NCBI RefSeq assembly: GCF_026013965.1
Contig: NZ_CP110341.1
Location: forward strand, 372,001 to 436,000
From: Brevibacterium sp. JSBI002
Lineage (GTDB): Bacteria; Actinomycetota; Actinomycetes; Actinomycetales; Brevibacteriaceae
Length of the DNA: 64,000 nt
Direction of reading: 5' to 3'
Both the position numbers and the translations under genes were made by a program. Below are positions 2,851-13,075 of the stretch, in pieces. The notes beneath the pieces are model-generated. The model was not told the DNA's origin. It searched no databases and saw nothing but the letters and a program-made list of their open reading frames with translations. Numbering within the stretch: position 1 is the stretch's first letter; the number at the start of each line of letters is the position of its first letter.

Positions 2851-4149
2851 TCACAGCTGCGCGTTCCACGTGTCGAGGCGGTCGCGGAGATCTTCGGCGG
2901 TCATGTCAATGAGGCCGATCCCGTGGTAGTTGGGCAGCCAGGTTTCGACGCGATCATTCGCGCGTGCCGCGGCTTGGACATCCCATGCGCGAATGTCGTT
3001 AATTCGGCGGCCGAGAAGTCGTTCGTACTCGTCGAGAAAGACGGCGGCCGCCTCGGGGGAACCGAGCAGCACAAGATCCTGACGGCACCAGGCGAGGTCG
3101 ACTCCGCGAGGTCCGCGGCTCGCGCCCGACCAGTCGACGACTCCGGTGAGGCGCCCCTGTTCCCACAGGGCATTTCCGGTCCAGAAATCCGTGTGCGTGA
3201 GGACCTCTTCGTCGCGGGCGAGGTTCGCCCACTCCCGCTGGGCGCGAATCGCGATGTCAGAGTCTCCTGGCGGCGGAGAGTTTGGAGTCAGAGGCAGACC
3301 GGTGCCGACGAGCTCGTGGATGCGCAGCAGCGCCGCGGCCATCTCGCGGGCGATGGTGGTCAGAGGTGTCGCCGGATCCGGTGGTGAGCCCGGCACACGG
3401 GTTGTGACGATGACCGGGTCGTTGGAGTCGGCGCTGTGGGCGATGAGACGGGGGACGAGATCGCCGAGCGGGCTCAGCCGATCGAGCACCGCGGCCTCTT
3501 TGATCGCCGCATCATGGCCCGTGGGAAATGCGCGGACGACGAGCTCCGCGTCTCCGTCGCGGGCCGCCAGGGTCAGCGCATGTTGACCGCCGGCAAGGGT
3601 CTCGACAGATCTCAGCTTCCGGCCGATCAGCGCCGAAGCTGTCGCGAGGGCGCGGGATCGGCGGCTTCGCTCGGCCGTCTTGAGCTGTCTCTTCAGCCCT
3701 TCGGCATAGCGCCTGGCCATCAACTCCTGGGCCGCCACTGTCACCGGAGCGCCCGGACGGAGGAGAGGATGTGCTGGGACGGAGTCGGCGCTGATGGCCA
3801 CGCGGAGGCGGCCGTCAGTGCCGACGGACACGAGGAAGGTCTCCTCTCCGTTCTCGAGGTGGCCCGGCAGGGTGCGATAGGTGAATCCGGCGCGATCCCT
3901 CTCATCGATCACCCGTGTGACGACGCATGCACCCACGGGTACGAGCAGATCGCGACCGCGCAGCCGCCTCGGCGGGACCGGCCAAACGGGGTTGAGTCCC
4001 AGGCTGACGATCTGGCCTTCGGATACGCGACGGCTCGGACGGACCACCACGCCGGCGAGGTCCTGCATCATCCAGGAGAAGATCGCTTCCCGCGCGAGCG
4101 GGAACTGGTCGCCCGAGCCGAGGTCGAGATGGAACTCGAGATGATTCAT
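2851..4149 (-). CDS. DUF1990 domain fused to an APH-fold phosphotransferase
   Basis: A 432-residue protein with two unrelated halves. Residues 1 to about 140 look like DUF1990 (the YndB/START-like family): an opening FPLAREAIFSWMMQDLAGVV, a PSRRVSEGQIVSLGL strand region and a VTRVIDERDRAGFTYRTLPG core. Residues of about 175-432 are an aminoglycoside-phosphotransferase/choline-kinase fold with HTDFWTGN (His319, Asp321 as catalytic base, Asn326) and the metal-binding VVDWSGAS (Asp339). The kinase half probably phosphorylates a small hydroxylated or amino compound; the substrate is unknown. It diverges from the SDR gene at 4316 and so shares its regulatory region. The fusion is unusual to my knowledge. 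GGAG sits very close to the start ATG. Confidence 0.75.
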   Translation of the reverse strand: MNHLEFHLDLGSGDQFPLAREAIFSWMMQDLAGVVVRPSRRVSEGQIVSLGLNPVWPVPPRRLRGRDLLVPVGACVVTRVIDERDRAGFTYRTLPGHLENGEETFLVSVGTDGRLRVAISADSVPAHPLLRPGAPVTVAAQELMARRYAEGLKRQLKTAERSRRSRALATASALIGRKLRSVETLAGGQHALTLAARDGDAELVVRAFPTGHDAAIKEAAVLDRLSPLGDLVPRLIAHSADSNDPVIVTTRVPGSPPDPATPLTTIAREMAAALLRIHELVGTGLPLTPNSPPPGDSDIAIRAQREWANLARDEEVLTHTDFWTGNALWEQGRLTGVVDWSGASRGPRGVDLAWCRQDLVLLGSPEAAAVFLDEYERLLGRRINDIRAWDVQAAARANDRVETWLPNYHGIGLIDMTAEDLRDRLDTWNAQL

Positions 4150-4250: not shown

Positions 4251-4315
4251 TTCAGGGCAATTCGCCAGGTCAGCGCCGAATGACCATGTCACAGCACGAA
4301 CACTGGAGTTCATCT

Positions 4316-5134
4316 ATGTCAGACAGCACCTCATCCGCTCAGCCCGCAGCTGCCTCGGCGGCTCCGAAATCCGGTCGCCGCTTCGAAGGACAGGTCGCTG
4401 TCATCACCGGCGCCAGCCGTGGCATCGGTCTAGGAATCGCTCGGCGGCTGAACGCGGAGGGGGCCACCGTCGTCCTCACCGCGCGCAAGCCCGAAGCGCT
4501 GAATGAGGCGGTCGCCGAGTTCCCCGAAGGAACGGCGCTTGCCATCGCCGGCAAGGCCGACGACCCGGCTCACAGGGCAGAGGTGCTCGACACGATCGCT
4601 GAGAAGTTCGGTCGCCTCGATGTGCTCGTGGCCAACGCTGGAATCAACCCCGTCTACGGCCCGCTCGTCGACATGGAACTCGATGCCGCGCGAAAGATCT
4701 TCGACGTCAATGTGCTCGGCACGCTGGCCTGGGTGCAGGACGCGGTCCATCATAATGGCCTGAATTTCCGCGAGAACAGGGGACGGGTGGTGGCGATCTC
4801 CTCGGTGGCCGGGCAGGTGCCGAGCGAGGGCATCGGCTTCTACGGCATCTCGAAGGCGGCGGTCTCGCATCTGACGAAGACGCTCGCCGTGGAGCTCGGA
4901 CCCGACATCCGCGTCAACGCCGTCGCCCCGGCAGTGGTCAAGACGAAGTTCGCCACCGCGCTCTACGAAGGCAGGGAAGAGGAGGTCGCCTCCGCGTACC
5001 CGGTCAAGCGCCTCGGCACTCCCGAGGACATTGCCGGAGCCGTCGCCTATCTGGCCTCAGAGGACGCCGACTGGATCACCGCTCAGGTGCTCACCGCCGA
5101 TGGGGGTGTCGTCACCGCCGGTGGCAGCGCCTGA
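4316..5134 (+). CDS. short-chain dehydrogenase/reductase (SDR)
   Basis: A 272-residue classical SDR of the FabG type, predicted to oxidise or reduce a hydroxyl/keto group with NAD(P). It has the cofactor motif TGASRGIG at residues 31-38, an intact NAG motif, catalytic Ser163, and Tyr176 with Lys180 in YGISKAAV. The Ala/Ser-rich first 18 residues precede the fold. The ATG at 4316 has GGAG 8 bases upstream and is preferred over an in-frame ATG at 4280. It is a close paralogue of the SDR at 8145, with long identical blocks such as ALYEGRE and ITAQVLTADGG. It stands alone behind its own promoter, but its position and promoter tie it to the catabolic operon at 6361-12637. Confidence 0.9.
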   Translation: MSDSTSSAQPAAASAAPKSGRRFEGQVAVITGASRGIGLGIARRLNAEGATVVLTARKPEALNEAVAEFPEGTALAIAGKADDPAHRAEVLDTIAEKFGRLDVLVANAGINPVYGPLVDMELDAARKIFDVNVLGTLAWVQDAVHHNGLNFRENRGRVVAISSVAGQVPSEGIGFYGISKAAVSHLTKTLAVELGPDIRVNAVAPAVVKTKFATALYEGREEEVASAYPVKRLGTPEDIAGAVAYLASEDADWITAQVLTADGGVVTAGGSA

Positions 5135-5467: not shown

Positions 5468-6067
5468 TTACTTCGCCGGAAGGCCGGCGGCGTGCGCGCA
5501 GATCTTGCCGTAGCGTTCGGCCACGCCAGCAGGATCAAGCTCACCGCCGGCCCGGTACCACTGCGAGACGCCCGTGCAGATAGTCGTGATCGCTCGTGAG
5601 GCATCCCGCGGGAACTCCGTGGTGAAGCTGCCGTCGGCAACGCACTCCTCGACCACCTCGTCGAGGAGTTTCTGTTGCCGGTCACGAGCGGCGATATGAG
5701 CATCCCGGTGCTGATCTTTCAGCGCTCGGATCTCGCTGAATGCGATGAAGGCGAGATCGGACTGGTGCGCGTGGAAGAGCAGCAGGCATTCGATGAGTCG
5801 GTCGAAGCGGGCGGTCCGCTCCTGCCCGCCGTCGGCGAGCGCCGCGACGCTGCGCTGCCACAGATCCTCCATCGCCAGGCGGTCGATCTCGGCGAGGATC
5901 GCATGCTTCGATGCGAAGTGGTGATAGAGGCCGGGCACTGACAGCCCGGCCGCGCCAGCCAGCTGGCGGATACTCGTGCCGTGGAATCCGCCCGTGACGA
6001 AGCTGTTGAGAGCGGACTGAAGGATCGGCGACAGCAGCGGGGCGTCGTATTCCCGCCAGTTCGTCAT
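5468..6067 (-). CDS. TetR-family transcriptional regulator
   Basis: A 199-residue TetR repressor. The N-terminal helix-turn-helix reads FVTGGFHGTSIRQLAGAAG then LSVPGLYHHFASK, the family signature. The C-terminal ligand domain ends near KICAHAAGL. An upstream in-frame GTG at 6082 is an alternative start; neither has a strong ribosome-binding site. It lies between the two SDR/ligase transcription units and diverges from the ligase operon. By the usual TetR pattern it should bind the inverted repeat at 6292-6309, and probably the related site at about 4238, with an acyl-CoA as likely inducer. The ligand is inferred, not seen. Confidence 0.88.
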   Translation of the reverse strand: MTNWREYDAPLLSPILQSALNSFVTGGFHGTSIRQLAGAAGLSVPGLYHHFASKHAILAEIDRLAMEDLWQRSVAALADGGQERTARFDRLIECLLLFHAHQSDLAFIAFSEIRALKDQHRDAHIAARDRQQKLLDEVVEECVADGSFTTEFPRDASRAITTICTGVSQWYRAGGELDPAGVAERYGKICAHAAGLPAK

Positions 6068-6253
6068 GGTTGCATTGCTCACGAGTTGTCCCTGCCTGCT
6101 CCGTCTCACTGTCTTCTCATCCCTAATCTACGGCCATTCGGACCCCGCGGTTCCATTCGCCCCCGGCGGTTCTATTCGACCCCGAAACGTCCCTCCATCT
6201 CTGAGCCCGATCGCTTTGCTGCTCGAACGGTCGACAGTCATGCCCGGCCGCCC

Positions 6254-6309
6254 TTGCGCCCGGTCATCGTGTGACCTACGATACAGAACTAACCGAGCGA
6301 GCGCTCGGT
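6254..6309 (+). promoter_or_regulatory. promoter and TetR-type operator of the acyl-CoA ligase operon
   Basis: TTGCGC at 6254-6259 and TACGAT at 6277-6282 are 17 bp apart. Then ACCGAGC and GCTCGGT form a 7-bp-arm inverted repeat around GAGC at 6292-6309. The repeat sits where it would overlap the transcript start, a normal repressor position. It matches the layout at 4193-4250. Confidence 0.6.
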
Positions 6310-6360
6310 CGGCCGAAACGGAGATGTTCCGGTCACGGCACGATGAAGGGCGACAGTCAG

Positions 6361-8106
6361 ATGGCAGCCGACAACACCTCCACCGCTACGCAGCACGTGT
6401 GGACGCGGCTTTACCCCGCCGGAGTAGGCGAGGCGCCGGAGATCCACGACGAGTCCACTGCCCATGCGTGGAATGCCCGCGTCGAAGCGGCCCCAGGTCA
6501 GATCGCCGTGACCTATCGCGGCCGCAGGTTCACCACCGCCGATATCGACCGTGAAGCCGAGGCGCTCGCCGCCGGGTTCCTCTCCCGCGGCCTGCAGAAG
6601 TCGGACATCGTCGGCGTCTACCTCCAGAACGTCCCGCAGTTCGCCGTGGCATTGCTCGCGGCTTGGAAGATCGGCGTCGTGCCCCTCGTCCTCAACCCCA
6701 TGTACCGCGGCCGCGAACTGCGCGCGCTCATCGACGATTCGGCCGCCTCGGCGATCATCTGCGACGAAGCAGACCTCGGCCAGGTTTGCGAGACCCTCGC
6801 CGGCGGATCCCTGACCTGGGTGCTCACCACCGATCACGACGAATACGACCGCGACCCTGCCGACCTCGTGGTCGACGCCCGGACCACTGCCTCCCGTGGG
6901 ATCGAAACCACCCCCGCCGAGGCGACCCCCGCCGAGTCCGGGATCGCCGTCGATTCGTGGGGTCCCTTTCTCGCCTCCCAGCGCACCAATGCGCCCGACC
7001 ACCGCACCGAACTGCTGCCGGGCCTCGACGACGCCGCCCTGCTCACCTACACATCAGGCACGACCGGACCGGCCAAAGGCGCCGTCGGCACCCACCGCAA
7101 TGTGCTCGCCGTGGCCCGGTCGTATGGAGAGTGGCTGAACCTCGGCGAAGGCGATGTCATGCTCGCCATCGCCCCGCTCTTCCACATCACCGGAGCCGTC
7201 GCCTGCGCGGCGACCTCGCTGATCTTCCCGATCACGCTCGACTTCATCGGCCGCGTGAACGCGGACAAGATCGTCACCGCCATCCGTGATGACAAGGTCA
7301 CCGTGACCATCGGCTCGATCACCGTCTACAACGCCCTGCTCGAACACGAATCGGCCACAGCCGAGGACCTGCAGAGCATCCGCTACCTCTACTCCGGTGG
7401 AGCCCCCGTGCCGCCGGCCACGGTCGAGCGCTTCCGGAAGCGGTTCGGCCATTACATCCACAACATCTACGGAATGACTGAAACCGCCTCGGCGGTCATC
7501 GGCGTCCCGCCCGACACCGAGGCACCCGTCGACCCGGCCACCGACACCCTGGCCATCGGCGTGCCGTTCCCCGGACTCGAAGCCCGTATCGTCGACGTCG
7601 CCGACGGAACCGTCGTCACCGATTCCACCGCCGGTGAACTCGAGCTGCGCGGGCCTCAGATCACGCCCGGCTTCCTCGGCAAACCCGAAGCCAACGAGGC
7701 GGCCTTCGACGATGGCTGGCTGCGCACCGGCGATGTCGGTGTCATGGACGCAGCCGGCTGGATCTACCTCGTCGACCGGATCAAGGACCAGATCAACGCC
7801 TCCGGCTACAAGGTGTGGCCGCGCGAGGTCGAAGACGTCCTCTATGAACACCCGGCCGTGCTCGAAGCCGCCGTCGTCGGCCAGCCCGACGACTACCGCG
7901 GCGAGACCGTCGTCGCCTACGTCTCCCTGCGCACCGGCCAAGACGTCAGCGCCGAGGAACTCATCGCCTTCGCGAAAGAACGCCTCGCAGCGTACAAGTA
8001 CCCGCGCACCGTCCACGTCATGTCAGACCTGCCGAAGACGCACACCGGAAAGATCCAACGCAGGCTGCTGCGAGACTCCGGAAAAGAAGCAGCGTCAGAT
8101 AGATAG
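6361..8106 (+). CDS. AMP-forming acyl-CoA ligase
   Basis: A 581-residue adenylate-forming ligase that activates a carboxylic acid to its CoA thioester at the cost of ATP. It shows the P-loop-like LLTYTSGTTGPAKG (around Thr231), the IYGMTETAS motif, DGWLRTGDVG, and the C-terminal PKTHTGKIQRR with catalytic Lys564. The ATG at 6361 is chosen because AAGGGCG lies about 9 bases upstream; an ATG at 6343 is also in frame. It opens an operon with the SDR, acyl-CoA dehydrogenase, APH kinase and permease genes that follow. This points to activation of an imported organic acid before kinase- and dehydrogenase-dependent breakdown. Chain length cannot be deduced. Confidence 0.93.
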   Translation: MAADNTSTATQHVWTRLYPAGVGEAPEIHDESTAHAWNARVEAAPGQIAVTYRGRRFTTADIDREAEALAAGFLSRGLQKSDIVGVYLQNVPQFAVALLAAWKIGVVPLVLNPMYRGRELRALIDDSAASAIICDEADLGQVCETLAGGSLTWVLTTDHDEYDRDPADLVVDARTTASRGIETTPAEATPAESGIAVDSWGPFLASQRTNAPDHRTELLPGLDDAALLTYTSGTTGPAKGAVGTHRNVLAVARSYGEWLNLGEGDVMLAIAPLFHITGAVACAATSLIFPITLDFIGRVNADKIVTAIRDDKVTVTIGSITVYNALLEHESATAEDLQSIRYLYSGGAPVPPATVERFRKRFGHYIHNIYGMTETASAVIGVPPDTEAPVDPATDTLAIGVPFPGLEARIVDVADGTVVTDSTAGELELRGPQITPGFLGKPEANEAAFDDGWLRTGDVGVMDAAGWIYLVDRIKDQINASGYKVWPREVEDVLYEHPAVLEAAVVGQPDDYRGETVVAYVSLRTGQDVSAEELIAFAKERLAAYKYPRTVHVMSDLPKTHTGKIQRRLLRDSGKEAASDR

Positions 8107-8144
8107 GCACCACTGACCGACAATCAAGCAAGACAGGAGAGACA

Positions 8145-8924
8145 TTGAGCGAATCAACGATCGGACGCCGTTTCGAGGGGCAGGTCGCCCTCGTGACGGG
8201 ATCGAGTCGCGGCATCGGCCTCGGCATCGCCCGTAGACTGCAGGCCGAAGGAGCGGCCGTCGTCCTCACCGCCCGCAAGCCCGAACCGCTTGCCGAGACC
8301 GTCGCCGAATTCCCCGAAGGCACCGTGATCGGCATCGCCGGCAAGGCCGATGATCCGGCCCACCGAACCGAGGTCTTCGACACTATCGCGGAGAAGTACG
8401 GCCGTCTCGACGTCCTCGTCACGAACGTCGGCATCAACCCGGTCTACGGTGACACTGTCGCCATCGAACTCGATGCGGCCCGGAAGATCCTCGAAGTGAA
8501 CGTCCTCGGCACTCTGGCCTGGATCCAGGGGGCCGTCCATCACGAGGGACTGAAGTTCCGGGAGAACAAGGGTCGGATCCTGTCCATCTCCTCGGTCGCC
8601 GGCCAGAATCCGAGCAAGGGCATCGGCCTCTACGGCGTCTCGAAGGCCGCCGTGGCCCACCTCGTGAAGACCCTTGCCGTCGAACTCGGACCCGATATCC
8701 GCGTCAACGGAATCGCCCCTGCCGTCGTCAAGACCCGCTTCGCCACCGCGCTCTACGAAGGCAGAGAAGCCGAAGTCACCGCCGCCTATCCGGCCGGCCG
8801 GCTCGGCACACCCGAGGACATCGGCGCAGCTGCGGCCTACCTCACGTCGTCCGACTCCGACTGGATCACCGCCCAGGTCCTCACCGCCGACGGCGGACTC
8901 ATCACAGCAGGAGGCACAGCATGA
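8145..8924 (+). CDS. short-chain dehydrogenase/reductase, paralogue of the SDR at 4316
   Basis: A 259-residue SDR starting at a TTG with AGGAGAG 6 bases upstream. It has TGSSRGIG at residues 18-25, catalytic Ser150, and Tyr163 with Lys167 in YGVSKAAV. Where the paralogue has the canonical NAG this protein reads NVG at residues 94-96, a change in the motif that supports the active site. The stop codon overlaps the next start as ATGA, so the acyl-CoA dehydrogenase is translationally coupled to it. In an lva-like scheme it would interconvert 4-oxo and 4-hydroxy acyl-CoA; this is inferred from context. Confidence 0.9.
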   Translation: MSESTIGRRFEGQVALVTGSSRGIGLGIARRLQAEGAAVVLTARKPEPLAETVAEFPEGTVIGIAGKADDPAHRTEVFDTIAEKYGRLDVLVTNVGINPVYGDTVAIELDAARKILEVNVLGTLAWIQGAVHHEGLKFRENKGRILSISSVAGQNPSKGIGLYGVSKAAVAHLVKTLAVELGPDIRVNGIAPAVVKTRFATALYEGREAEVTAAYPAGRLGTPEDIGAAAAYLTSSDSDWITAQVLTADGGLITAGGTA

Positions 8925-10180
8925 GCCACATTCCAGCAGACGTCGAAGAGCTGCGCCAGCGCACCCGCACCTTCATCCGCGACGTGGTCATGCCCGCCGA
9001 ACCCCATCCCGGGGACTACCTCGACGAAGCGGTCCTGACCGACCTCAAGGCCAAAGCCAAGGAGGCAGGAGTCTTCGCCCCACACGTGCCCGCCGAGTGG
9101 GGCGGCCAGGGCGTGCCGATCGAATTCTGGTCCCCGGTGTTCCAGGAGGCAGGCTACTCGCCGATCGGGCCCGCCGTACTCAATTGCATGGCACCCGATG
9201 AGGGCAATATGCACATGCTCGCCCAAATCGCCACACAGGAGCAGAAGGAGCGGTTCCTCGCCCCGCTGGCCGCCGGCGACGTCCGCTCCTCCTTCGCCAT
9301 GACCGAACCACATCCGGGCACCGGCTCCGACCCATCGGCGTTGTCCACCCGCGCCGTCAAGGACGGCGACGAGTGGGTCATCAACGGTGACAAGCGCTTC
9401 ATCTCCGGGGCTGAGCTGTGCAGCTTCTTCATCGTCATGGCCGCCACCGACGCCGAGGAGTCGGCCGCTGCGACCGAGGGCTCCGGCTCCGCGCAGGCTC
9501 GCAAGGGCCAGGCCGCCACGATGTTCCTCGTACCCAAAGACACCCCCGGCGTCAGTGTCGGCCGGTCGATCCACACTGTCGATCGCACCATCGCCGGCGG
9601 CCACCCCTACGTCCACTTCGACGACGTTCGCGTCCCCGCCTCGGCGATCCTCGGCGAACCCGGCAAGGGCTTCGCCTACGCCCAGGTGCGCCTGGCACCC
9701 GCCCGCCTCACGCACTGCATGCGGTGGCTGGGACTGGCCCGCCGCGCGCTGGACACGGCACTCGACCGTGCCGACCACCGCGAGGCATTCGGCGACGTCC
9801 TCGCTCGCCAGGGCCTCGCGCAGGAGCTCATCGCGCAGTCGGTCATCGACATCGAAACCTCTGACGCGATGATCACGAAGACCTCCGAAGTGCTCGCCAC
9901 CGATGCGAAGGAAGCGAACTCCAGATCTTCGATCGCGAAGGTCTACTGCTCCGAAGCCGTCTACCGTGTCATCGATCGGGCCATCCAGCTCACCGGCGGC
10001 GACGGCGTCTCCGACCAGCTGCCGCTGATCCAGTACCTCAACGACGTCCGTCCGTTCCGCATCTACGACGGTGCCACCGAGACGCACAAGTTCGCGATCT
10101 CCCGCCGCGCGTCATCGAAGCGCCGCAAGGAAGTCGCCGCAGGTGCACCTCATCTCGACGACGTAGAGGAGGCACGATGA
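8921..10180 (+). CDS. acyl-CoA dehydrogenase, ACAD10/11-like, with Asp in place of the usual catalytic Glu
   Basis: A 419-residue acyl-CoA dehydrogenase-fold protein. The flavin-binding stretch is FAMTEPHPGTGSDPSALSTR, followed by VINGDKRFISGA. The C-terminal domain has QLTGGDGVSDQLPL then RIYDGATETH. The paralogous enzyme at 87-1250 has RIYEGTSE there, so Glu is replaced by Asp383. It overlaps the APH kinase gene by ATGA and the SDR gene by ATGA. A dehydrogenase-fold protein coupled to an APH kinase recalls ACAD10/11 and LvaC/LvaA, which isomerise 4-hydroxyacyl-CoA through a phosphorylated intermediate. That function is a hypothesis here. Confidence 0.88.
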   Translation: MSHIPADVEELRQRTRTFIRDVVMPAEPHPGDYLDEAVLTDLKAKAKEAGVFAPHVPAEWGGQGVPIEFWSPVFQEAGYSPIGPAVLNCMAPDEGNMHMLAQIATQEQKERFLAPLAAGDVRSSFAMTEPHPGTGSDPSALSTRAVKDGDEWVINGDKRFISGAELCSFFIVMAATDAEESAAATEGSGSAQARKGQAATMFLVPKDTPGVSVGRSIHTVDRTIAGGHPYVHFDDVRVPASAILGEPGKGFAYAQVRLAPARLTHCMRWLGLARRALDTALDRADHREAFGDVLARQGLAQELIAQSVIDIETSDAMITKTSEVLATDAKEANSRSSIAKVYCSEAVYRVIDRAIQLTGGDGVSDQLPLIQYLNDVRPFRIYDGATETHKFAISRRASSKRRKEVAAGAPHLDDVEEAR

Positions 10181-11259
10181 CCGAGAAGCTCGTAGACGTC
10201 GTCGACACTGCCGCCGAGGCGCAGGCACTGTCCGCTCCGCCCCTGCTCATCGTCGACGTCCTCACCGACTACCTCGACACGCATGGCTTCGGGTCCGGTC
10301 CCGTCCGCTGGGACCGCATCGGCGAGGGCCAGTCGAACGTGACGTTCCGGATCCGTCGCGGTGACCTCGACGTCGTGCTCCGACGCGGACCGCGCCCGCC
10401 GATCCCGAAATCGACTCACGACATGGTCCGGGAGGCGAAGATCCAGAAGGTCCTCGGCGCTCAGGGAGTGGCCGTGCCCACGATCCTCCACGTCTGCGAG
10501 GACGAATCGGTCCTCGGCGTTCCGTTCTACATCATGGATTTCGTGCCGGGCACCGTCGTCACCGACACCCTGCCCGATTTCCTCGCCGAGGCGGCCGACC
10601 GTCGAGCCCTGAGCGAAGCCCTCGTCGACCGCCTCGTCGACCTCCACTCGGTCGACGTCACCGTTCCCGAAGTCGCCGCGCTTGGTCGACCGGACGGATA
10701 CCTGGTGCGCCAGGTGAAGCTGTTCGCCTCCCTCTGGGAGAAGAACACTCAGCGGTCGCTGCCCCAGGTCAGCCGCCTCGGTGAGTGGTTGGCCGCGAAC
10801 ATTCCGGCCACTCAGCGGCACGCGGTCGTCCATGGCGACTACCGTGCCGGAAACGCAATGATCGCGTCCTCGACGCCGGTCGAGGTCGCAGCGATCCTCG
10901 ACTGGGAGATGTCGACCCTCGGCGATCCGCTCGCCGACCTCGGCTACTTCCTCGTCACCTACACCGACCGCGCGCATCCGCGCACGGTCATGGACCTCAC
11001 CCCGGTCACGGCGGGGGAAGGGTTCCTCACCCGTTCCGAACTCGCCGATCGTTACCAGCAGAAGACGGGCCTCGATCTGTCCGGGTTGCCCTGGTACGAG
11101 GCCTTCGCGCTGTGGAAGGCCGCGATCTTCAGCGAAGCCATCTACACCAGATGGCTCAACGGAGAGGCACCGTCGGCCGGTGACTTCACCGGCAGCCTCG
11201 AAACCGGGGTCCCCGAACTCATCGCAGCCGCCGAAGCCATCGCCGCCACCGTCGTGTGA
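10177..11259 (+). CDS. APH-fold phosphotransferase, candidate hydroxyacyl-CoA kinase
   Basis: A 360-residue aminoglycoside-phosphotransferase-fold kinase. It has the N-lobe signature GEGQSNVTFRI, the catalytic loop VVHGDYRAGN (His219, Asp221, Asn226) and the metal-binding LDWEMSTLGDP with Asp242. Members of this subgroup next to acyl-CoA dehydrogenases are not drug-resistance enzymes. LvaA and the N-terminal part of human ACAD10/11 phosphorylate 4-hydroxyacyl-CoAs. The four-base ATGA overlap with the dehydrogenase implies the two products are needed together. The permease follows after 88 nt. Confidence 0.88.
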   Translation: MTEKLVDVVDTAAEAQALSAPPLLIVDVLTDYLDTHGFGSGPVRWDRIGEGQSNVTFRIRRGDLDVVLRRGPRPPIPKSTHDMVREAKIQKVLGAQGVAVPTILHVCEDESVLGVPFYIMDFVPGTVVTDTLPDFLAEAADRRALSEALVDRLVDLHSVDVTVPEVAALGRPDGYLVRQVKLFASLWEKNTQRSLPQVSRLGEWLAANIPATQRHAVVHGDYRAGNAMIASSTPVEVAAILDWEMSTLGDPLADLGYFLVTYTDRAHPRTVMDLTPVTAGEGFLTRSELADRYQQKTGLDLSGLPWYEAFALWKAAIFSEAIYTRWLNGEAPSAGDFTGSLETGVPELIAAAEAIAATVV

Positions 11260-11347
11260 CGGCGAGCGAGACAGGAGTATCTGCACCACCGAGCACCACC
11301 ACAGATATATACAGCACCACCTCCAACGAAGCAGTGGAAAGGAAGCC

Positions 11348-12637
11348 ATGACCGATACGATCGCAGAGACAAAGGTGCCTCTGCAGCTGAAACGGCGATC
11401 CGTCGTCGCGAGCACCATCGGCAATATCCTCGAATGGTACGAATGGAGCGCCTACGCGGTGTTCACGCCCTTCATCGCCGCCGCGATGTTCAACAGCGAG
11501 GACACAGTCTCCTCCGTCCTCGCGACCCTCGGCGTCTTCGCCGTCGGATTCCTCATGCGGCCGCTCGGCGGCATCGTGTTCGGCAAGATCGCCGATGTGA
11601 AGGGCCGGAAGTTCGTCCTCATCGTCACGATGCTCATCATGGCCGGCGGATCGTTCCTCATCGCCGTCCTGCCGACTTATGGACAGATCGGGGTCTTCGC
11701 CTCCCTCATTCTGCTCGTCATCCGGGTTGCCCAGGGCTTCGCTCACGGCGGAGAGTCGGCAACGGCGAACTCCTATATCGCCGAGATCGCCCCGGCCCAC
11801 AAGCGCGGTTTCTGGGGCTCCATCGTCTTCGTCGCGATCTTCGGCGGCTCGGTCGTCGCCTACACCATCGGCGGATTGATCACGAACGTCTTCTCCGAGG
11901 CCGCGGTCAGTGATTGGGCGTGGAGGATTCCGTTCGCGCTCGGCGGTCTGCTGGCGCTCGTCGCACTGTGGATGCGCCGCGGAATGGTCGAAAGCGACGT
12001 CTTCGAAGCCGATGAAGCCGAAGAGACCGTCGCCCCGACTCCGCTGGATCGCGGGCGTGTGGTTCGCGCGATCATCCTCGTCGTGCTCATGACCTCGGGC
12101 ATCACTGCGGCTCACTACACCTGGACCTCGTACGCCTCGACCCTGGCGATCACCGAGCGCGGTATGGATGCGCAGACCGCCTACTGGGCGACCGTCGGTG
12201 CGCAGATCATCGCTCTTGTGTCGCTGCCGTTCTGGGGATTCCTGTCCGACAGGATCGGTCGTCGGCCGGTGCTCATCGGTTTCGGCGTGCTCATGGCGAT
12301 CCTGCAGTATCCGCTCATGGGCATGATCACGGACACCGGCTGGACGCTGTTCGTCGCATCGACGCTGGCACTGCTCGTGGTCTCGATGGCAGGAGCCCTG
12401 CTGTCGGCGGTCCTGTCCGAGGCGTTCCCGACGAAGGTCCGCACCCAGGGGATCGGCTTCGCCTACTCGGTCTCCGTGGCTGTGTTCGGCGGAACAGCAC
12501 CGTATCTCAACGGACTGTTCAACTCGCTCGACCTCAGCTGGCTCTCCAGTGGCTGGGTGGTCCTGCTCTGCCTGGCAACGATCGTCGCCGTGGTCAAGCT
12601 GCCCGAGACCAAGGGCAAGGACCTCAACGCGATCTGA
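11348..12637 (+). CDS. MHS-type MFS permease (metabolite:H+ symporter)
   Basis: A 429-residue, 12-helix major facilitator of the metabolite:H+ symporter group (ProP/KgtP/ShiA-like). Evidence is the N-terminal VASTIGNILEWYEWSAYAVF, the loop GGIVFGKIADVKGRKFVL, RVAQGFAHGGESATANSYIAE, and the second-half GFLSDRIGRRPVL. The ATG at 11348 has AAAGGAAG just upstream; an upstream in-frame ATG at 11180 lies inside the kinase gene and is rejected. As last gene of the ligase-SDR-dehydrogenase-kinase operon it most likely imports the organic acid that the operon degrades. Confidence 0.9.
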   Translation: MTDTIAETKVPLQLKRRSVVASTIGNILEWYEWSAYAVFTPFIAAAMFNSEDTVSSVLATLGVFAVGFLMRPLGGIVFGKIADVKGRKFVLIVTMLIMAGGSFLIAVLPTYGQIGVFASLILLVIRVAQGFAHGGESATANSYIAEIAPAHKRGFWGSIVFVAIFGGSVVAYTIGGLITNVFSEAAVSDWAWRIPFALGGLLALVALWMRRGMVESDVFEADEAEETVAPTPLDRGRVVRAIILVVLMTSGITAAHYTWTSYASTLAITERGMDAQTAYWATVGAQIIALVSLPFWGFLSDRIGRRPVLIGFGVLMAILQYPLMGMITDTGWTLFVASTLALLVVSMAGALLSAVLSEAFPTKVRTQGIGFAYSVSVAVFGGTAPYLNGLFNSLDLSWLSSGWVVLLCLATIVAVVKLPETKGKDLNAI

Positions 12638-12675
12638 ACATCGCGGCGCGACCGCAGCGCCGCCTCGGCGAATTT

Positions 12676-12755
12676 AGGTCGCTATCGGATTTCGGCCCCC
12701 GAATCCAGGTCGCTATCGGATACTTCTGAGCAAGGAAAGTATCCGATAGCGACCT
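12676..12755. repeat. two-direct-plus-one-inverted palindromic element, copy 2
   Basis: AGGTCGCTATCGGA appears at 12676-12689 and 12707-12720, then inverted at about 12742-12755. The last two form a perfect 19-bp stem (12707-12725 with 12737-12755). Compared with the copy at 5183-5272 the stem carries C-to-T on one side and the matching G-to-A on the other, so pairing is conserved. It follows the permease stop and is likely its terminator. Confidence 0.85.
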
Positions 12756-12848
12756 ATTTCTGCATGGGAGTCACAGGGGTGCTGCCGTGGGGAGCTGGTC
12801 CTCGCGGCGGTTGGAAGAGTGGTCATAGTGAGGGGGCCAGCCCGGGGT

Positions 12849-12877
12849 TTGTCGGGGGTGATTTCATTCACTAGAAT
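12849..12877 (+). promoter_or_regulatory. promoter of the glycine riboswitch-gcvP transcript
   Basis: TTGTCG (12849-12854) and TAGAAT (12872-12877) are separated by exactly 17 bp. The box is about 90 nt before the riboswitch aptamer. This is the best sigma-70-like match in the region. Confidence 0.65.
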
Positions 12878-12969
12878 CGGAGGCGCAGTCTCAGCCGGGG
12901 CCTCAGAGGTCCATCTGCTTCAGAGACCCATCTGGTTCTGCGCACAATTTCATACGCCGCTAAGACAAG

Positions 12970-13075
12970 ACGTGGGAGAGCTGCCGCAGTCAGGCCGAAT
13001 CGAGCCAGACACCGAGCAGCGCCGTAGGTGCAATTCCCTCCCCGGGAAACTCTCAGGCCCAGTACCACCGATTGC
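12970..13075 (+). ncRNA. glycine riboswitch aptamer
   Basis: The segment has the conserved glycine-aptamer blocks in order: GTGGGAGAGCTGC, CGCCGTAGGTGCAA, then GGAAACTCTCAGGC followed by an ACCACCG element. GGGAGAG and CTCTC pair to form the basal helix. It lies 100 nt before gcvP, the classic target, where glycine turns on the cleavage system. I see one clear aptamer; a second complete copy, as in tandem glycine riboswitches, is not evident. Confidence 0.88.

Follow-up and report, generated by a model that had tools for sequence, protein, structure and literature searches.

Which compound is broken down by an operon that places a gene for an aminoglycoside phosphotransferase (APH)-fold kinase directly behind one for an acyl-CoA dehydrogenase (ACAD), and by what chemistry? 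The question is raised by a 64,000-nucleotide stretch of the Brevibacterium sp. JSBI002 genome, hereafter the window (positions 372001–436000 of a genome consisting of a single 3.74 Mb contig), in which codirectional genes for an acyl-CoA ligase, a short-chain dehydrogenase/reductase (SDR), an ACAD, an APH kinase, and a metabolite:H+ symporter (MHS) permease, together with a divergent TetR gene, span 5468–12637. We read it, with a probability of roughly 0.7, as a TetR-controlled operon that serves to import and degrade a short-chain 4-oxo or 4-hydroxy acid and in which an ACAD of the LvaC branch, known from the levulinate (lva) clusters of Pseudomonas, works with an ACAD10/11-class kinase that would not depend on LvaB; the operon would therefore be a hybrid of known parts. 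Levulinate or 4-hydroxyvalerate is, by analogy, the leading candidate substrate. All five operon proteins named in the initial annotation were located with the expected folds (Pfam AMP-binding, adh_short_C2, Acyl-CoA_dh N/M/1, APH, and Sugar_tr/MFS_1, with TetR_N in the regulator), and the parallel it drew with lva stands, as ligase, SDR, ACAD, kinase, permease, and regulator are all present. The ATGA overlaps it reported were confirmed at the SDR/ACAD (8921–8924) and ACAD/kinase (10177–10180) junctions.

The active site of the ACAD-fold protein (8921–10180, plus strand) points to a putative phosphate-eliminating enzyme acting on 4-phosphoacyl-CoA. Its catalytic position is D383, compared with E362 in the ordinary ACAD at 87–1250, and both residues are exactly as initially annotated. 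In the alignment, R626, H634, R637, and D753 of ACAD11 correspond to R257, H265, R268, and D383 of the window ACAD, with H265–R268 forming the HCMR motif, and H597 and the common R631 correspond to H228 and R262. In mouse ACAD11, the ACAD step is disrupted when R626, H634, or R637 (the HCMR region) is changed, though only partly by R637K, and a catalytic-Asp mutant serves as an inactive ACAD (PMC12440821). Equivalents of R626, H634, R637, and D753 were found in 80 of 80 ACAD loci, the best 80 of at least 586 confirmed stretches, which had been gathered with window-ACAD patterns spanning neither the HCMR region nor D383; the eight-residue ACAD pattern was identical in 76 of them (exceptions L055, L062, L075, and L083). 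The R-H-R triad occurred in none of the 33 other ACAD rows of the alignment, including the ordinary 87–1250 enzyme, where a few rows are the same gene twice and the shortened rows L106 and L108 are counted on neither side. One of the other rows, L071_3312, has the aligned Asp but not the triad. Judged from these residues and from kinship, 4-phosphoacyl-CoA chemistry is a well-supported prediction.

Phylogenetic analysis separated two subfamilies among the ACADs with this signature. In a thorough tree built from a chosen subset of 41 rows, the signature ACADs were united against conventional ACADs (100/100). One group contained ACAD11, 4hr3, two paralogues of this genome, a Rhodococcus protein, and two Pseudomonas proteins (100/99; 99/95 with L066_5722 included). 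The window-side group had a basal support of 88/89, lowered by two rows that branch deep and are of unsure placement (L076 and the L144 ACAD from Azospirillum); within it 27 ACADs, including those of the window and the lva clusters, formed an inner group supported at 99/99. An earlier quick tree of 54 rows left two deep Chloroflexota rows outside both groups. Joining the window clade with the seven ACAD10/11-group rows was rejected by the approximately unbiased (AU) test (p-AU 4.45e-5), the tested group having been named after the quick tree had been inspected. The window ACAD is 36% identical to ACAD11, whereas the two paralogues of this genome reach 53% and 50%. Seventeen positions separate the seven ACAD10/11-group rows from 86 other rows at ≥85%, and the window ACAD sides with the 86 at 16 of these, including T264, F379, and Y382, of which T264 and Y382 adjoin catalytic residues. 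A preference for short chains may come from F379 and Y382, which are bulkier, and T264, F379, and Y382 are candidate residues for chain-length choice. The tree thus divides what the consulted literature treats as one orthologous group. ACADs from records titled Sporosarcina (L028) and Klebsiella pneumoniae (L078) branched with Arthrobacter and with a Caulobacterales metagenome-assembled genome, respectively; this could reflect mistitled records or gene transfer. On the window side of the tree, signature ACADs with no kinase detected in the stretch examined (some of them short) were L076, L078–L081, L086, L088, L090, L092, L093, L095, L098–L100, and L102–L104.

The position of LvaC itself was read from lva clusters. 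In gene order, L183 corresponds to the cluster that levulinate induces in P. citronellolis LA18T, as described in PMC6692424, and its ALAD, kinase, and SDR (323, 352, and 255 aa) have the lengths given there; the other open reading frames (ORFs), each taken here from its first start codon, compare with the published lengths as 391/301 (ACAD), 239/218 (phosphatase), 579/531 (ligase), 625/548 (symporter), and 679/624 aa (regulator). Five Pseudomonas loci (L199–L203) have the order regulator, kinase, 118-aa DUF6285 protein, ACAD, 255-aa SDR, and ligase, followed in L199–L201 by an ActP-like symporter; none was seen in L203, and the L202 stretch ends within the ligase. Their identities to L183 were 57–58% (kinase), 77–78% (ACAD), 66–68% (SDR), 33–36% (ligase), 51–53% (regulator), and 57–64% (symporter, three loci). 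Because these reproduce the LA18T/KT2440 values given in the literature (59, 78, 67, 35, 52, and 64%, respectively), the five loci, with their gene order, were taken as KT2440-type lva operons. The DUF6285 protein was taken, by position, as LvaB; its calculated mass is 13.1 kDa, and that of LvaB is 12 kDa in PMC6692424. The same source counts against equating the two, as it describes LA18T without lvaB, contrary to L183, which holds a DUF6285 gene between the kinase and phosphatase genes. In many lva-like clusters, histidine phosphatase genes lie beside DUF6285 or LvaA-class kinase genes, namely in L110, L112, L113, L183, L185, L204, L144, and L145.

The KT2440-type LvaC proteins were 43–45% identical to the window ACAD and 34–35% to ACAD11. 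When LvaC of L199 was compared with the 16 ACAD loci that a query with the window ACAD recovers from this genome, the window ACAD was the best match, at 329 bits, with the next at 207. The window ACAD and KT2440-type LvaC have the motifs RLAPARLTHCMR and RIYDG in common. PMC11342911 states that LvaC is 62% and 56% identical to ACAD10 and ACAD11, respectively; the latter value was not reproduced, the alignment giving 34%. A placement of LvaC within the ACAD10/11 subfamily, derived from those stated identities, was dropped once the lva clusters themselves had been located.

The kinase (10177–11259, plus strand), putatively acting on 4-hydroxyacyl-CoA, fell on the other side. D220, N225, and the CoA-contacting R176 of ACAD11 align with D221, N226, and R178 of the window kinase, which shows 27% local identity to LvaA of L199 and is 32% identical to the ACAD11 kinase domain. 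When 38 kinases, again a chosen subset, were placed in a tree, they split at 100/100 into the lva-cluster kinases and a class holding the kinases of the window, ACAD11, 3dxp, 9o56, and two other sets of this genome; with two distant outgroups, both classes remained clades (90/100 and 86/93), although the root was weak (75/41). The phylogenetic comparison with LvaC/LvaA and ACAD10/11 that had been proposed at the outset thus placed the ACAD with LvaC and the kinase with the ACAD10/11 class, not with LvaA. The claim that the operon holds the two halves of ACAD10/11 survives for the kinase and fails for the ACAD, and the separation into two genes loses its special standing, since lva itself has them separate.

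The kinase class also bears on LvaB. The initial annotation saw no LvaB-like protein, and a PF19802 (DUF6285) search of this genome gave no match, and the 10 actinobacterial genomes behind the studied loci likewise gave none; PF19802 matches were found in 25 of 296 Actinomycetota genomes and in three Pseudomonas genomes. A same-strand DUF6285 gene lay no more than 600 bp from 30/35 LvaA-class and 0/63 window-class kinases, omitting the duplicate loci L001–L003, L009–L011, L105–L109, and L113, and with class profiles seeded from an earlier kinase tree that had the window kinase among the seeds. The first fraction is inflated by selection, as 28 of the 35 loci, L110 and L112 among them, came from PF19802 searches; the second is free of such selection but relies on a local profile, which misses in the PF19802-selected L126, L138, L140, and L141 indicate to be less sensitive than PF19802. 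Under other selections, DUF6285 was present in three of four ACAD-selected loci (L089, L091, and L097; in L101 the match lies farther off), in all three kinase-selected plasmid loci (L143–L145), and in five of six kinase-selected Pseudomonas loci (L199–L203, with none in the ORF list of L204). A missing LvaB is therefore expected here, because in the examined loci DUF6285 goes with the other kinase class, and this explanation replaces the earlier proposal of a variant route deduced from the missing protein. An Azoarcus cluster (ACAD-SDR-kinase-DUF6285-phosphatase) combines an LvaA-class kinase with an ACAD of the same branch as the window ACAD, and an Azospirillum cluster (TetR-SDR-ACAD-kinase-DUF6285-phosphatase) is similar, but its ACAD is a deep row of the tree. 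Since in Azoarcus and Pseudomonas a same-branch ACAD and an SDR occur with the other kinase class and DUF6285, the ACAD appears to stay constant while the class of kinase beside it can be exchanged.

The core of the operon is conserved among 36 window-type loci (L025–L060; ACAD identity 58–97%), 35 of them titled Actinomycetota and one (L028) Sporosarcina. The kinase follows the ACAD in all but L055, where the contig ends (35 loci), and the SDR precedes it in 32; a divergent TetR occurs in 21, a permease in 13, and a ligase in 18 by script, or 20 counting L056 and L059. By script, SDR, ligase, kinase, and permease are all present in eleven. The context of the ACAD stop codon is ATGA in seven loci and GTGA in 11. 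The nearest named proteins, among the best 120 of 8000 scored candidates, come from Brevibacterium. Within the genus, the ACAD was found at an E-value of 1e-90 or better in 13 of 57 genomes, among them the present one, and is thus an accessory trait. In Arthrobacter sp. ERGS1:01 (L142), a 754 kb plasmid, typed as non-mobilizable, carries the SDR-ACAD-kinase core, next to which a succinate-semialdehyde dehydrogenase gene occupies the opposite strand.

The TetR regulator (5468–6109, minus strand; TetR_N and TetR_C_24) and the operator that had been proposed at the operon front were both borne out. At 6292–6309 lies a perfect palindrome, ACCGAGCGAGCGCTCGGT, composed as ACCGAGCG-AG-CGCTCGGT. Its pattern has one match in the window, without mismatches, whereas shuffles of the window gave a mean of 0.08 at up to two mismatches (8 of 100 shuffles with one); genome-wide there is a single exact match, with five further places at two mismatches, compared with two for a control pattern. 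By direct tally, it recurs wherever a related locus has a divergent TetR (21 of 21), with 0–3 mismatches in 16 arm bases and 14 exact copies. A scan of 6100–13000 found no consensus sigma-70 promoter at the operator, only two promoter-like sites away from it (0.5 expected). Such a promoter was rejected as a candidate; the by-eye choice TTGCGC-17-TACGAT fits 7 of 12 positions. The same scan calls the palindrome a minus-strand terminator-like hairpin (five such sites, 2.6 expected); we prefer the operator because of its place and conservation.

Under the proposed scheme, the permease would import the acid, the ligase would form its CoA thioester, and the SDR, a putative 4-oxoacyl-CoA reductase, would reduce the 4-ketone to the 4-alcohol. 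The APH kinase would then phosphorylate the 4-hydroxyl, and the LvaC-type ACAD, with Asp383 as the α-proton base and R257, H265, and R268 holding the phosphate, would eliminate phosphate through an internal FAD redox cycle, giving a 2-enoyl-CoA for β-oxidation. We infer these steps from the protein families and from the ACAD10/11 and lva papers, and infer likewise the independence from LvaB, the substrate, and the induction.

Several observations weigh against this scheme. No kinase was detected near the ACAD, within the stretches examined, in 17 of the 80 ACAD loci, none of which is window-type; the type of ACAD by itself is therefore no proof of a kinase step. R86 of ACAD11, in the numbering of PMC12440821, aligns with no Arg; an Arg beside the α-C Glu, two residues before the R86 position, aligns with R85-E86 of the window kinase. 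Four of the 36 window-type loci have no detected SDR, and many lack the ligase or permease, so some hosts may start from the hydroxy acid or another CoA ester.

The same kinase and ACAD chemistry might instead act on another substrate, such as a 4-hydroxy or γ-lactone-derived acid, with the SDR oxidising the 3-hydroxyacyl-CoA product; this is possible, if clearly less probable, and overlaps with the preferred reading. The patchy occurrence of SDR, ligase, and permease would suit it, as would the SDR (8145–8924, plus strand, TTG start) and ligase (6361–8106, plus strand) themselves. They belong to the same broad families as the LvaD-type SDR and LvaE-type ligase of L199, but at 31% and 32% identity they are not close enough to count as orthologues, so the substrate is not transferable from lva, which also tells against the preferred reading. 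The top PDB matches of the SDR were DHRS4, then 3-oxoacyl-ACP reductases and similar SDRs, and those of neither protein fix a substrate. Against another substrate, the SDR precedes the ACAD in 32 of the 36 window-type loci, as LvaD adjoins LvaC in lva, and the MHS permease family is suited to small polar acids. The permease (11348–12637, plus strand) has as its top NCBIfam match TIGR00883, metabolite/H+ symporter, under the cut-off (335 of 443 bits).

An ordinary fatty-acid β-oxidation operon, with a normal ACAD and a kinase acting on an unrelated drug, thiamine, or choline, is improbable. The Pfam and NCBIfam matches for the ACAD and APH are generic and would allow it, but the catalytic Glu is replaced by Asp, the R-H-R triad is present, and a kinase 32% identical to the ACAD11 kinase domain directly follows the ACAD in 35 of 36 loci; it was rejected on the signature residues. 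Least probable is a direct ACAD10/11 orthologue in both halves, which the kinase class and the LvaC identities stated in PMC11342911 (these would merge the subfamilies) might suggest, but which the AU test, the 36% identity to ACAD11 (53% and 50% for the same-genome paralogues), and the 34% of KT2440-type LvaC contradict.

The hybrid operon is one of three ACAD+APH sets in this genome. A set around 544848–546784 comprises SDR, zinc alcohol dehydrogenase, ACAD, APH, and TetR genes, and another around 1238877–1241889 comprises APH, SDR, ACAD, and ligase genes; a division of labour by substrate among the three is plausible. A slightly better than even case can be made that the 4-phosphoacyl-CoA pathway is modular, with two kinase classes and two ACAD subfamilies shuffled, DUF6285 partnering only the LvaA class, an LvaC-type route in Actinomycetota that is independent of LvaB, and three modules here, possibly split by chain length as ACAD10 and ACAD11 are. 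ACADs resembling the ACAD10/11 subfamily were found in 25 of 25 Pseudomonas genomes searched (the genus of G001), 58–60% identical to the query paralogue. A kinase gene was not detected in any of six Pseudomonas stretches (L177–L182), and the four proteins checked carried the HCMR and Asp motifs.

Two gene starts deserve comment. For the ligase, 6361 (or 6343) is more likely than GTG 6271, because the latter is upstream of the operator and the longer ORF, probably too long, would cross it. For the permease, 11348, which is 88 bp past the kinase gene end, is more likely than 11180 and leaves no overlap with the kinase gene. Outside the operon, but possibly associated with it, a second SDR gene (4280–5134, plus strand), ~80% identical to the operon SDR, lies across the TetR/ligase region from it; the similarity suggests a local duplication, and the pair also occurs in L025 and L026. 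At 2851–4149 (minus strand), near the ordinary ACAD, DUF1990 is fused to an APH-fold kinase, relatives of which also lie left of TetR in L025–L027; the adjacent ORF (1343–2674) appears CaiB-like by eye.

Overall, the analysis turns a blurred annotation, "acyl-CoA dehydrogenase" plus "aminoglycoside phosphotransferase", into a testable catabolic route in many actinobacterial genera. It suggests that a levulinate-type pathway probably exists outside Pseudomonadota and that LvaB would be needed only with LvaA-class kinases. Among the papers listed in searches of the open-licence PMC literature, we found no description of an actinobacterial lva-type operon, of a link between LvaB and kinase class, or of such a hybrid, and nothing relevant on levulinate and Brevibacterium or on PP_2792.

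Compared with known systems, the operon resembles lva of Pseudomonas KT2440 and citronellolis LA18T in its ACAD, an LvaC-branch enzyme (44%) whose active-site motif is the same, and in the clustering of SDR, CoA ligase, kinase, transporter, and regulator genes. It differs from lva in the kinase class, in having no LvaB/DUF6285 protein, and in its SDR (31%) and ligase (32%), which are not close. Whereas lva has an ActP-type LvaG with LvaF and a sigma-54-type LvaR, the window operon has an MHS permease and a TetR, and it has no counterpart of the histidine phosphatase gene of the citronellolis-type cluster. With mammalian ACAD10/ACAD11 it has in common a kinase class without LvaB, the residues for 4-phosphoacyl-CoA turnover, and the Asp base; unlike those fusions, its kinase and ACAD are two ATGA-overlapping genes, and its ACAD, 36% identical to ACAD11, belongs to the sister subfamily. 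Like the operon, the two further sets in this genome have the ACAD signature, an ACAD10/11-class APH, and a nearby SDR, with a ligase in the second, but their ACADs, at 53% and 50% to ACAD11, belong to the ACAD10/11 subfamily.

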